Origin: Planctomycetota bacterium
Lineage (GTDB): Bacteria; Planctomycetota; UBA8742; JACQVU01; JANLHZ01
Reading direction: 5' to 3'
DNA length: 37,238 nt
Assembly (NCBI GenBank): GCA_024653775.1
Contig: JANLHZ010000108.1
Location: forward strand, 1-37,238
Below are positions 3,007 through 19,929 of this stretch, in pieces. The notes below the pieces were generated by a model, which had not been told where the DNA came from, searched no databases, and was given only the letters and a program-made list of their open reading frames with translations. The translations under genes and the position numbers were made by a program. Numbering within the stretch: position 1 is the first letter of the stretch; each line of letters starts with the position of its first letter.

Positions 3007-3390
3007 GTGGAAGGTTCAAAAAATAACTTCCAACGGTTCTTTTACAAGCAGAATGACGATTATTTCAGATTTAGGACGTGGAACAAAATAACCTTCCAAT
3101 CTTGCATCGCGTCTTCACGCCATCTTCGCCCCGCGCTCAGTCGCCAAATCCTCAGCGGAACCGCCGCTACGCCTCCGGTTTGGCTTCCTCGCGCGAACCG
3201 AACTTGTCGCAAATCCGAGCGCAATTTTTGAAAGTTCATTATGTTCCACGTCCTTAGAGAAAAGGAATTTTACGTCAGGATTTTCGGTGAATTCGTGGCG
3301 TCCAAAAAATCCGTTTTTTACTGCGCGATTTCGCCGTCGCTGCTAACATGTAGGCGTGCGGAATAACCAAAATAGAAACGAGGCTTCGTT
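3007..3390. other. Intergenic region, no gene seen
   Basis: No convincing coding frame, RNA fold or repeat-family member was found here. It lies between the divergently oriented tRNA-Ser gene and the SH3-like gene, so it probably holds promoters for both, but I could not assign boxes confidently. Confidence 0.4.
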
Positions 3391-5072: not shown

Positions 5073-6041
5073 TCAACCCGGTTCAGTATTTTTACTCGCA
5101 AAATTCAACTTTCGATTCGTCGGCAATGCGGAAATAGAGCCTTTTCCGTAAATCGAGACCCTAGAAAATTCGTCGAGCGCGAATTTCAGGTAATCCGTTT
5201 GCACGGCAAAAGAATTTTCGCGCCTTGCCCTCGCTACTGCATTTTGCTGCGGCGAAGACGAATCCGCCGAGTGAACACCCCTGGCGAAAAGGTTTGAAAT
5301 CATCTTCGGCTGACCGACTCCGAAGGCGTGAACGTACATTTCTTCCGCTGCGTCGATCACTCCTCTGATCACATCGTCCGCGGCTTCAGGCGATTTTCTC
5401 ACCGCGAGTCCGCCGATTCCGACGCCGTCGAGACCGAGTTGTTTGTATTCGTTTGCGAGGAAGAAAGCGCTATTGTAGTCCCAGGCGGTGAGCGATCCGA
5501 AAACGCGGATATCCGGATTCGAAATTCTCTCTTTCAGGTACACCGCATTATCGAGAGTCATTTTCTGGCGCGATTCCTTGGTTTTCAGATCGTCTTCCGG
5601 GCGGGTCTGTATATCCAGCGTGAAACAGACTTCGCCTATTCGTTCGCAAGTTTCGATAATTTCGTCCGAAGTGATTCGCGTACCTTGCTTTGTTATCAAA
5701 ATGTGATTTCCACGAGCTTTCTCGACTCGCGATTCCATAGGTAGTGACGCAAAGCCGCCGGAATCGATAAACGTCGGGAGAATGTATGGAGCATCGATGT
5801 TTTTTGCATAGTAGACGCTTACCATCACGGCGCCCCAAAATCGTGGCAGATACGCGTGAAGCATTTCGTCGAGGAAGTACTTCCCGCCGAAGGTGGTCAC
5901 GGGTATGAACGCGGGAAGCTTTACGTCGGCTTTCCGTGTGCGAAGTATCGATCCGCCTGAAGCGCGCTCGACGAAGCTATAGCAGTGTTCGCCAAATATC
6001 GGGTAGGGTAGCGTCGGTCCGGCTGGTGTTGTCATTTTCAT
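5073..6041 (-). CDS. TGT-superfamily (tRNA-guanine transglycosylase-like) protein without the zinc site
   Basis: The 322-residue product matches the tRNA-guanine transglycosylase TIM-barrel. It has PAFIPVTTFGGK near the N-terminus, FIDSGGF (Asp93, the base-binding/general-acid position in TGTs), a substrate-pocket-like FTLDIQ (Asp143), VGIGGLAV (about 207-214) and a nucleophile candidate Asp260 in GVHSADSSS. Canonical TGTs carry a CxCxxC...H zinc site after this block; here no cysteine follows, so the C-terminal zinc subdomain is missing. It is therefore unlikely to be standard bacterial Tgt. It could act on another RNA or on DNA, as DpdA does, but no dpd partner genes are near. ATG codons at 6041 and 6035 are both possible starts; no clear ribosome site is visible. 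A truncated paralogue lies at 7038-7373. Confidence 0.75.
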   Translation of the reverse strand: MKMTTPAGPTLPYPIFGEHCYSFVERASGGSILRTRKADVKLPAFIPVTTFGGKYFLDEMLHAYLPRFWGAVMVSVYYAKNIDAPYILPTFIDSGGFASLPMESRVEKARGNHILITKQGTRITSDEIIETCERIGEVCFTLDIQTRPEDDLKTKESRQKMTLDNAVYLKERISNPDIRVFGSLTAWDYNSAFFLANEYKQLGLDGVGIGGLAVRKSPEAADDVIRGVIDAAEEMYVHAFGVGQPKMISNLFARGVHSADSSSPQQNAVARARRENSFAVQTDYLKFALDEFSRVSIYGKGSISALPTNRKLNFASKNTEPG

Positions 6042-6109
6042 CGGATAATGTTAGATCGATACTCGCCGCAAAACTTAAAATCTATTCCCGCGCGACCTAT
6101 GGAGCTTCT

Positions 6110-7033
6110 ATGAATCAGGAAAACGTCATCGACTGGCTGCTCGAAGGCGATCCTTCGATCCGGTACCAGGTTCTTCGAGACATTGTGATTGCCGACAAAC
6201 GTACGATCGAGGCGGAGAGAAATAAAATTGCCCACGCGGGTTGGGGCGCGAAGCTGCTCTCCTTTCAGGACGGGTGTGGAACGTGGGCGCGTCAGCTCTA
6301 CGATCACAAGTGGATCTCGACGACTTACACGCTTCTTCTCCTGATGCGGATGGGACTTCCGCCCGGTAATGCGCAAGCGCATGAGGCGTGCAGGGAGCTT
6401 CTCGATGGAGGCTACCGCGAAGGCGGCGGGATATGTTTCGCGAAAACCGTCGATACCGTCGATAACGGCGTGACCGCGATGGTGCTCGCGATGCTCTCGC
6501 AGTTCGGTTACCCCGATCCCCGGGTGCACGAGATCGCGGACTACCTTTGCAAAGAGCAATCCCCGGACGGCAGGTGGTTCCCGTCAGGCGTCGGAGTGAA
6601 ATTTCGTTATCATTTCGACAACACGCTGCTGGTTCTCGAAGGTTTGCGGGAATACGAGAAAAGACATCCGCGAGAATCGAAGAGATCGAAAGCCGCGCAG
6701 TCGTATGGTCGCGACTTTCTGCTTCGTCACCATCTTTTCATAATCCCGGAAACGGGCGCGCCGATCGATAAGAAGTTCACGCTGATTTCGTTTCCGCGAA
6801 GATGGTTCTACGACGTCCTCGGCGCGCTGGACTATTTCCGCGAATCCGGTGCAAAAAAGGATCCGCGTCTTGCCGAAGCTATCGAAGTCCTGAGGAAAAA
6901 GCGAAATAGGGACGGCACCTGGAACCTGCAGAACCCGCATCCGGGGAAAGTATGGTTCGAAATGGAGAAACCCGGAAAACCGAGCAGATGGAACACCCTT
7001 CGCGCGATGCGCGTGCTTAAGTGGTGGGGATGA
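6110..7033 (+). CDS. Terpene-cyclase-fold (prenyltransferase/squalene cyclase-like repeat) protein, cytoplasmic
   Basis: The 307-residue product has alternating helical repeats of the (alpha/alpha)6 toroid type, with QW-like segments DGCGTWARQLYDHKW, SPDGRWFPSG and RDGTWNLQNPHPGKVW. It has no signal peptide. The start is ATG 6110, with GGAG eight bases upstream; the frame is open further upstream but that part overlaps the opposing TGT-like gene. Proteins of this type are often annotated as squalene cyclase, but the catalytic DxDD motif of hopene cyclases and the zinc ligands of protein prenyltransferases are not evident, so no reaction is assigned. It is divergent from the TGT-like gene and sits between that gene and its truncated copy. 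Confidence 0.8.
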   Translation: MNQENVIDWLLEGDPSIRYQVLRDIVIADKRTIEAERNKIAHAGWGAKLLSFQDGCGTWARQLYDHKWISTTYTLLLLMRMGLPPGNAQAHEACRELLDGGYREGGGICFAKTVDTVDNGVTAMVLAMLSQFGYPDPRVHEIADYLCKEQSPDGRWFPSGVGVKFRYHFDNTLLVLEGLREYEKRHPRESKRSKAAQSYGRDFLLRHHLFIIPETGAPIDKKFTLISFPRRWFYDVLGALDYFRESGAKKDPRLAEAIEVLRKKRNRDGTWNLQNPHPGKVWFEMEKPGKPSRWNTLRAMRVLKWWG

Positions 7034-7037
7034 AGCT

Positions 7038-7373
7038 TCAGGTTCTTCGGTACACGACGTAACTGCAGTCGTCGCTAAGTCCGCCGGAATCGATAAACGT
7101 CGGGAGAATGTATGGAGCATCGATGTTTTTTGCATAGTAGACGCTTACCATCACGGCGCCCCAAAATCGCGGCAGATACGCGTGAAGAATCTCGTCTAAA
7201 AAGAACTTTCCACCGAACGTGCTTACGGGGATGAATGCGGGGAAACTAATGTTTCCATTTCGAGTTTGAATAGTATCCGAAACATATCCAGCCTTCGCCT
7301 GCGTATACTTCTCCTCGGAATAAACTGGATACGGCAATTTTGGCGCGTTATTTTCCATTGCTATTTTTTGCAA
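7038..7373 (-). pseudogene. Truncated second copy of the TGT-like gene
   Basis: The frame encodes 111 residues aligning to the N-terminal third of the 5073-6041 protein: FPAFIPVSTFGGK, FLDEILHAYLPRFWG and ILPTFIDSGG. It then departs into an unrelated tail (SDDCSYVVYRRT) and stops. Everything after the IDSGG motif, including the nucleophile region, is missing, so it cannot be an active transglycosylase. Positions 7081-7187 are nearly identical in DNA to 5755-5861 (one mismatch in 107), while the remaining 5' part has diverged to protein-level similarity only. This pattern fits recent gene conversion or a duplication followed by patchy decay. Its 3' end lies 4 bp from the stop of the convergent cyclase-fold gene. 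The ATG at 7358 is an alternative start. Confidence 0.7.
7081..7187. repeat. Direct duplication of 5755-5861
   Basis: The first 89 bases (7081-7169) are identical to 5755-5843. After one mismatch, another 17 bases match, and then similarity drops sharply. The block covers the coding region from HAYLPRFWG to the IDSGG motif of the TGT-like gene and its truncated copy. Confidence 0.85.
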
Positions 7374-16309: not shown

Positions 16310-16450
16310 GTAACTGTTCACGGGGTAGTTCGCGTTCGTAGTGGCGCCGTAAGGCGTTTCTTCGATCCTCTACTATCTGGAAATATGCTCTCACGAGCAC
16401 ACTACTACAGAATCCCGCTATAGACTGCGATCTACACCGCGAACAGTTAC
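16310..16450. mobile_element. MITE-like element, copy A (141 bp)
   Basis: The ends are 24-bp inverted repeats beginning GTAACTGTTC; 21 of 24 positions pair between left and right ends. The interior matches copy B at 18963-19104 over nearly its whole length, including GGCGCCGTAAGGCG and TGCTCTCACGAGCA hairpins. No target duplication is visible, and the right half has more substitutions, so this is an older copy. It fills the gap between two convergent genes. Confidence 0.85.
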
Positions 16451-18012: not shown

Positions 18013-18900
18013 TTAATGTTCGATTTTCGCGGTCAATAGATTTCTCGACAGCGCAAGCAGAGTTTCCGGCGAAAGCTCCTCTGCACGAGCGTTCGAATCG
18101 ATTGCGAGCATCTTGAACGCGCGTTCGATGGATTCCGCCCGATACGCTCCCTTCAAAGCTTTGTGAAGCGTTTTCCTGCGGTGCGAGAACGCGAGGTGCA
18201 GAAGGTCTTTCAGAAGTCCGTAGCCCGCGACGTCTGACGGCTTCACGCGAAGGTTTGAAATTTCGAGCACTGCGCTTTCCACCTTCGGCCTTGGCCAGAA
18301 GACGTCCCTTCCGAGCTTTTTCAGTAGTTTTGGTTTGCCGAGTAGAGCGGTGACGACGCTGATGATCCCGTACTTTCCGCCCGAAGTCGCGACGATGCGC
18401 TGCGCGACCTCCTTTTGTACCGTGAGCACAAATCTTTCGAGCGGAAGTTCCGACTCGAGAAGATTGACTATCAGCGACGTGGAGATGTTGTACGGAATGT
18501 TGGCGACGACTTTCAGACGCGATACTTCGCTACGCGCGAGAGCGTTTTCGCATTCCCGGACCACCACCGGATTCAGCGCCGCTTTGCCGTCCAGAACGTC
18601 GGCGCGGATCACCTTGATCCTTGACGAATCCGCGTTCTCTTCGACGAACGACGCGAACCCTTCGTCGAGTTCCACCGCGATGACTTTCGCACCCGAGTCG
18701 AGCAGTACTCCCGTCAGCATTCCGGGTCCGGGTCCGACCTCGAGCACGACGTCGTCCGGAGTCAGCGCCGCAGCGTTTACGATGAAATTGAGGAGGTTCT
18801 TGTCGAAAAGGAAATGCTGGCCGAGTTTTCGCGTGTTCGCAAGGAGTCCGCGGGAATCGAGGATTTCCTTTATTTCTGTAAGAGTCCTTGGAAGCGGCAC
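18013..18900 (-). CDS. rsmA: 16S rRNA (adenine1518/1519-N6)-dimethyltransferase RsmA/KsgA
   Basis: The 295-residue product has all the RsmA marks: the N-terminal substrate-clamp motif LGQHFLFDKNLLNFIV, SAM-binding motif VLEVGPGPGMLT (residues ~52-63), the catalytic NIPYN (~139-143, the usual NLPY replaced by NIPY as in some family members), QKEVAQRIVA, and the C-terminal helical domain FSHRRKTLHKAL. It dimethylates two adjacent adenines in helix 45 of 16S rRNA late in 30S assembly, using S-adenosylmethionine. The start is GTG 18900, with no strong ribosome site. A MITE-like element was inserted 62 bp upstream, between it and the divergent glutaredoxin gene, where it could affect promoters of both. 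Confidence 0.97.
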   Translation of the reverse strand: MPLPRTLTEIKEILDSRGLLANTRKLGQHFLFDKNLLNFIVNAAALTPDDVVLEVGPGPGMLTGVLLDSGAKVIAVELDEGFASFVEENADSSRIKVIRADVLDGKAALNPVVVRECENALARSEVSRLKVVANIPYNISTSLIVNLLESELPLERFVLTVQKEVAQRIVATSGGKYGIISVVTALLGKPKLLKKLGRDVFWPRPKVESAVLEISNLRVKPSDVAGYGLLKDLLHLAFSHRRKTLHKALKGAYRAESIERAFKMLAIDSNARAEELSPETLLALSRNLLTAKIEH

Positions 18901-18962
18901 GATGAATTTTCAGTTTTCGGGAAGTTGATCCCGCGGCAGATGGTTCATAGCATAAAAGACCT

Positions 18963-19104
18963 GTAACTGTTCACGGGGTAGTTCGCGTTTGTAGTGGCGC
19001 CGTAAGGCGTTTCTTTTATCCCCTACTATCTGAAAATATGCTCTCACGAGCACACTACGAACAGATTCCCGCTATAGACTGCGAACTACCCCGTGAACAG
19101 TTAC
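18963..19104. mobile_element. MITE-like element, copy B (142 bp, perfect ends, 8-bp target duplication)
   Basis: The terminal inverted repeats are identical over 24 bp and begin GTAACTGTTCACGGGG. The element is flanked by an exact 8-bp direct repeat AAAGACCT (18955-18962 and 19105-19112), showing transposition. An inner stem GTTTGTAGTG/CACTACGAAC and the hairpin TGCTC-TCAC-GAGCA mean the whole element can fold into one long structure. GTAA ends plus 8-bp duplication match the IS66 family, so it is probably mobilised in trans by an IS66-type transposase elsewhere. It carries no gene. Confidence 0.92.
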
Positions 19105-19143
19105 AAAGACCTCAGATGATCGAACCAATGTGGAGCGCTGACA

Positions 19144-19410
19144 ATGGCGAAAATAGAAATTTACACAACGAGGATATGTCCGTATTGCGTCCGGGCGAAA
19201 AAACTGCTCACGGAACTTGGGCAGGAGTTCATCGAGATCGACGCGTCGGACCCGGACGTGCGCGCTGCGATGATCGATCGGGCAGAGGGCAGGACTACGG
19301 TCCCGGAGATATTCATCGACGATAAACTCATCGGCGGTTGCGACGATCTGTACGCTCTTCATAACCGTGGCGGTCTCGAACCGCTGCTCGGAAATGAGAC
19401 GAGTGGGTGA
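19144..19410 (+). CDS. grxC: Glutaredoxin 3-type (GrxC)
   Basis: This 88-residue classical dithiol glutaredoxin has active site C12-P-Y-C15 in TTRICPYCVRAK, the cis-proline strand TTVPEIFIDD, and the glutathione-binding GGCDDLYAL. It reduces disulfides and glutathione-mixed disulfides in the cytoplasm with glutathione as donor. Length fits GrxC. GGAG about eight bases upstream supports the ATG at 19144. The gene is divergent from rsmA. The right end of MITE copy B and its target duplication end about 30 bp upstream, so the promoter may overlap or lie within the element. Confidence 0.95.
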   Translation: MAKIEIYTTRICPYCVRAKKLLTELGQEFIEIDASDPDVRAAMIDRAEGRTTVPEIFIDDKLIGGCDDLYALHNRGGLEPLLGNETSG

Positions 19411-19929
19411 GTGGTCAGCGGTGAGAAATTAGGAATTCCTCAAGTTGACGGCTATCTTTTCAGCCGCCTGAGCGGAAAAAGATAAAAATCTGCGCTTGGT
19501 AAATGTCTCACCAAGTATTTCTGCAGGAAGAAGAGACAGAGATCGGAGGTTCGAGATCGCGCAAGAGCAGGTAAGTCCGGATGGCGTTTCACGAATGTCG
19601 GCGCTACTTTTGCGGGTAACGATTTCGAACCACCCGGAGCCGTCAAATCGCCGTCGAGTTTCTCCGGCGACGCGATGACTTCGGGTCCACCGAGGGTACC
19701 CTCGATCCTTTCTCGCCACGGCGGGGAACGGATACGAAAATAGCGGGAATCTGTTCGTAGTGTGCTCGTGAGAGCATATTTTCCAGATAGCAGAGGATCG
19801 AAGAAACGCCTTACGGCGCCACTACGAACGCGAACTACCCCAGGAACAGTTGCTAATTTTTATGTGTCCTTTACCGTTCATCAGCGATAAAATACGTGCT
19901 GCTCCGAATCCATTTTCACGAGGTGGTCA
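19411..19929. other. Intergenic region with a truncated MITE-like copy
   Basis: No gene is supported; short open frames at 19429-19719 have no recognisable product or ribosome site. The right part contains element copy C (19740-19853). The left part includes CGAGTGGGTGAGTGG at ~19400, weakly reminiscent of the heptad arrays. The promoter of the 19930 gene must lie here or inside copy C. Confidence 0.45.
19740..19853. mobile_element. MITE-like element, copy C (truncated, inverted)
   Basis: Read on the minus strand from 19853, the sequence starts GCAACTGTTCC and follows copies A and B closely through the GGCGCC and TGCTC/GAGCA hairpins as far as CCCGCTAT. It then departs into unrelated sequence, so about 28 bp including the second terminal repeat are missing. 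It is opposite in orientation to copies A and B. Confidence 0.85.

Follow-up and report, generated by a model that had tools for sequence, protein, structure and literature searches.

A 142-bp intergenic element in the genome of a Planctomycetota bacterium is very probably a non-autonomous IS66-type transposon (MITE) that carries a doublet of REP units as cargo and was amplified by a trans-acting IS66 transposase of the ISBst12 type. The window, by which we mean the whole stretch of 37,238 nucleotides analyzed here, comes from a 5.4-Mb assembly in 331 contigs (96% complete). The element lies at 18963–19104, between a divergent minus-strand rsmA/ksgA-type 16S rRNA dimethyladenosine transferase gene (PF00398, 18013–18900, start at 18900) and a plus-strand glutaredoxin gene (PF00462, 19144–19410, start at 19144), and is bordered on both sides by the 8-bp target duplication AAAGACCT (18955–18962 and 19105–19112). 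Its terminal inverted repeats start with GTAA, span 24 bp each and are 100% complementary, with the IS66/ISBst12-type end GTAACTGTTCACGGGGTAGTTCGC on the left (18963–18986, plus) and its perfect complement on the right (19081–19104, minus). The inverted ends, the duplication and the position in the rsmA/grxC gap had been described in the initial annotation and held up, as did the predicted hairpin folding, which we computed as a single long hairpin (−77 kcal/mol, z = −11 relative to dinucleotide shuffles). The element is non-coding and encodes no TnpC or DDE_Tnp_IS66 domain, so it is not an autonomous IS66 element, and it has the attributes of a MITE in being short, multi-copy, dispersed, bounded by inverted ends and without a transposase gene. 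An Rfam scan of the window returned two tRNAs only.

We found that the interior of the element consists of two REP units in head-to-head inverted orientation with GTAG outside, an arrangement that the initial annotation had overlooked together with its independent occurrence elsewhere. REP-A (18991–19009, plus) comprises GTAGTG and the hairpin GCGCC-GTAA-GGCG, and REP-B (19037–19058, minus) comprises GTAGTG and the hairpin TGCTC-GTGA-GAGCA, then TA, and completes the doublet across a 27-bp spacer (19010–19036). GTAG followed by a short hairpin is the form expected of GTAG REPs and REPINs, and head-to-head doublets of GTAG-tagged REPs have been described before (PMC3733652) and were named REPINs by Bertels and Rainey (PMC3116915). 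As with REPINs, the inverted pair is also dispersed as independent units. In an unbiased sample of 1.03 Mb of contigs, about a fifth of the genome, 17 REP doublets were located inside IS66-type ends and 14 outside; 15 of 34 REP-A matches and 14 of 31 doublets lacked these ends, and reversed controls gave 0. Free doublets mostly had a spacer of about 4 bp and a GTCA or GTAA loop, compared to the 27-bp spacer of enclosed doublets, and some enclosed copies contained duplicated REPs (L071, 190 bp; L142, 172 bp). Judged by its sequence, the composite is thus an IS66-type MITE with a REPIN-like doublet as cargo.

Two further copies that had been proposed within the window were confirmed. One is a full-length, older copy of 141 bp (16310–16450, plus) with an imperfect right end and differing flanks (CCATAGAC and CTTCCGTC), meaning that no target duplication is left, and the other is truncated (19740–19853, minus), retaining the REP doublet and one IS66-type end (GCAACTGTTCCTGGGG at 19853). 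The search for additional copies in the genome, which the initial annotation had suggested, yielded many: the exact 16-bp end GTAACYGTTCACGGGG occurred 118 times compared to 0 for the reversed-pattern control, so the multiplicity of the element is far beyond chance. BLAST against the genome gave 227 candidates, and all 40 that were scored were full or near-full copies. Ends with up to two mismatches numbered 52 in the unbiased 1.03-Mb sample, or ~270 per genome, and since some ends are orphaned, we estimate a lower copy number, roughly a hundred to 150. Complete copies had a mean identity of 86% (maximum 98.6%). Contig termini carried an element end in 12 of 130 cases (0.7% expected). This excess indicates that the assembly was interrupted at recent copies nearly identical to one another, and part of its fragmentation is explained by the MITE. 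The full element was absent from 60 relatives, and the 24-bp end pattern had no exact match outside this species in GTDB r220, a database from which the genome itself was possibly left out.

Target duplications and empty sites provided evidence for transposition. The unbiased sample contained 21 end pairs, of which 12 had exact 8-bp duplications and two had matches at 7 of 8 positions, and none of 20,000 trials with shuffled flank pairings reached 7 or 8 matching bases. About three of these pairs were chance pairs, all without duplications, leaving ~18 complete copies, 12 of them with perfect duplications. Three copies were inserted in dispersed repeats, and sibling repeat copies were uninterrupted at exactly the same point. 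The joined flanks of these copies aligned without gaps when one target copy was retained, with the copy in L117 (8669–8810) matching window positions 3140–3071 (93% over 70 bp), that in L017 (1505–1646) matching 3070–3145 (89% over 76 bp) and that in L032 matching L102 (82% over 93 bp). Because uninterrupted paralogous target sites exist for three copies, insertion is demonstrated directly rather than deduced, and the comparison of filled and empty sites that had been recommended between strains was thereby achieved within a single genome, relatives being without the element. The empty site in the window (3070–3145) is itself a dispersed repeat of ~75–95 bp with many paralogs in the genome, hit elsewhere by two MITE insertions. 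MITE junctions fell within long open reading frames in 14 of 49 cases compared to 84% of random positions, and duplicated target sites were AT-rich (60% vs. 44%). Insertions thus avoid genes, and copies are mostly intergenic.

The origin of the ends was assessed by comparison with IS66 elements in the phylum, where 56 of 149 genomes encode IS66 transposases. An earlier sample of top hits consisted mostly of other IS66 subgroups with different ends, and the right subgroup was reached by a protein search with the L158 transposase (NF033517/PF03050-type), which gave 28 usable loci. Inverted exact GTAACCGTTCA(C) ends bracketed the transposase in 9 of the 28, and in 0 with reversed or complemented controls. 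Exact 8-bp duplications flanked L196, L214 and L221 (1473 bp), L211 ended in GTAACCGTTCACGG on one side and GTAACCGTTCACGA on the other, and an IS66 remnant from the same order as the window’s genome (L159) had the end GTAACCGTTCACC and carried GTAACCGTTCAC. ISDge4, a member of the ISBst12 group of IS66, has the ends GTGACTACTCAGCA and GTAACTGCTCAGCA and an 8-bp duplication (PMC12898284). Given the IS66 ends and duplications in the phylum, the L159 remnant and ISDge4, IS66 is the best-supported family for the MITE ends, a link that is based on duplication length and on a match to known IS66 ends that covers ~11–14 bp, not the full 24 bp. In G372, an IS66 element (L158/L193) and a 202-bp element (L089) with GTAACCGTTCAC ends both had 9-bp instead of 8-bp duplications, and duplication length is therefore non-uniform across the group. 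Short, non-homologous elements of other phylum members also carried the exact 16-bp end, among them L086 with the 8-bp duplication GAACTGAG. The genomes G097, G289 and G039 have their own short elements (e.g. L086 and L093) with an exact GTAACCGTTCACGGGG end and unrelated interiors, which suggests a wide distribution of IS66-type MITEs across the phylum.

No IS66 transposase (PF03050) was detectable in the 96%-complete assembly, and in ~1.4 Mb searched for longer elements with MITE ends and a duplication, nothing exceeded 190 bp. A parental autonomous element was not found in the same genome; the draft assembly may have lost it, and the parent, if present, would be unassembled, unbinned or lost. 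Contigs ending ~95 bp inside the repeat were considered as a collapsed parent and rejected, as the sequence there is that of the MITE itself. The full IS66 element sharing these ends that the initial annotation had called for was thus missing from the genome, and elements with shared ends (11–14 bp) were instead found in the phylum. Its proposal of an IS66-type transposase as mover accordingly agrees with the ends and duplications of IS66 elements in the phylum, and we infer the trans-acting enzyme, which would probably have been of IS66 type, from these matches, since the genome has no detectable IS66 transposase.

The genome encodes five Y1 genes, of which three are RAYT-like (L079, L080 and L082), with NF047646 just below its cut-off. 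The hairpin repeats flanking these three differed from gene to gene, with GGAGTG-AAACGC-GCAA-GCGTTTC, for example, beside L082 and a tandem GGTGACTGGCACGTCACC array beside L079, and a cognate RAYT flanked by the REPs of the MITE was not found among the five. We do not regard L082 as cognate: although its REP has GCGTTTCTTTG in common with that of the MITE, it is confined to the vicinity of the L082 gene. In L081 (G000:C288, minus, locus 388–2736), a Y1 (IS200-like) domain lies in frame within purH; the open frame of 783 aa combines MGS and Y1_Tnp domains with a split AICARFT_IMPCHas domain, which is unusual for a purine-synthesis enzyme.

In the reading we favor, the 16–24-bp ends would be recognized by a single-ORF, ISBst12-type transposase of the IS66 family, which, acting in trans, would excise or copy the 142-bp unit and insert it via 8-bp staggered cuts. 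The cargo is a head-to-head, REPIN-like REP doublet rather than a random IS remnant. Its likely history is that a REP doublet became flanked by IS66 ends and that the composite was then amplified by IS66 transposition, reaching about a hundred copies or more, mostly intergenic. The interior could also be nothing but folded remains of an IS66 element, its hairpins resembling a REP doublet by chance; palindromic interiors are frequent in MITEs, and the whole element does form one hairpin. However, the REP units occur without IS66 ends in nearly half of their matches, usually with the short spacer and never in controls, and these free doublets largely refute a plain IS66 MITE, which we regard as quite unlikely.

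Movement of the MITE by another DDE family (e.g. IS256- or ISAs1-like), with ends that resemble those of IS66 by convergence, would account for the lack of a detected IS66 transposase in this genome, and 8-bp duplications are also made by other transposase families. Against such convergence, GTAACCGTTCA pairs repeatedly bracket IS66 transposases in the phylum and never do so in controls. An autonomous parent from a different family with the same ends, which would have contradicted the initial annotation, was not found, and in searches directed at IS66 rather than systematically at other families, no GTAACYGTTCACGGGGTAG ends were seen with another transposase; we judge this explanation very unlikely. 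The presence of RAYT-like Y1 genes and the GTAG-plus-hairpin form of the core would fit a REPIN moved by a RAYT (Y1) transposase with the GTAAC ends as passive flanks. Y1 transposition of the IS200/IS605 type produces no target duplications, yet copies of the element terminate precisely at GTAAC and are flanked by 8-bp duplications, and the RAYT-like genes have other hairpins alongside. The duplications and the empty sites, which are exact to the element ends, contradict movement by RAYT and make it extremely improbable.

The IS66-type ends also enclose hairpins unrelated to the REP doublet. Among elements with such ends and an 8-bp duplication, one contained CCCTCTCCC...GGGAGAGGG (L129, 4269–4422) and two a GGACGTCC-type hairpin (L151, 14257–14422; L073, 3469–3620), and a further element resembling the latter two had a duplication matching at 7 of 8 bases (L097, 17885–18048). 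This variety could reflect either repeated capture or ancient divergence. It is conceivable, though doubtful, that IS66 ends here repeatedly recruit palindromic cargo (the GTAG REP doublet and the GGACGTCC and CCCTCTCCC hairpin families), such that REP-type repeats may be spread by two mechanistically unrelated kinds of transposition, RAYT/Y1 and IS66/DDE. Repeated recruitment, if true, would constitute a RAYT-independent route for multiplying REP-like repeats.

Similar to the ISBst12 group of IS66 (e.g. ISDge4, PMC12898284), the MITE has ends beginning with GTAAC and 8-bp direct repeats. ISBst12-group elements in the phylum consist of a single ORF in 1.47–1.55 kb with GTAACCGTTCA ends, whereas the MITE is 142 bp, has no transposase gene, shares a longer end of 24 bp and is without a detected autonomous partner in its genome. 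It resembles the bacterial MITEs MITEPsy1, MITECca01, Nezha and ERIC in being short, non-coding, multi-copy and intergenic, with inverted ends, target duplications and a strong hairpin. In contrast to the present element, the published MITEs compared here derive from IS5-, Tn3- or IS982-type elements (PMC3189936, PMC9769881), and none of them is IS66-derived or contains a REP doublet. GTAG REPs are already known from Planctomycetes (PMC3116915, PMC3733652), and the same features as in REPINs and GTAG REP doublets (PMC3116915, PMC3733652) are present here, namely GTAG with a tetraloop hairpin, pairs with GTAG outside, and free doublets and singlets. Unlike REPINs, the doublet is enclosed by IS66-type ends, would move as cargo and has no cognate RAYT with the same REPs among those found. 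The open-access literature searched contained no IS66-derived or REP- or REPIN-bearing MITE, and IS66-derived MITEs thus appear undescribed there, though an ISfinder entry or subscription paper is possible. The element reached high copy number in a genome without a visible IS66 transposase, connects MITEs and REPINs, two classes of non-autonomous DNA that are usually kept apart, and provides a testable mechanism by which REP-like repeats could multiply where no cognate RAYT exists.

Elsewhere in the window, a minus-strand TGT-domain gene (PF01702, 5073–6041) and a shorter fragment on the same strand (7038–7373) share FIPVSTFGGK.../MVSVYYAKNIDAPYILPTFIDSGG, and this likeness suggests a partial duplication around 5936–7033.
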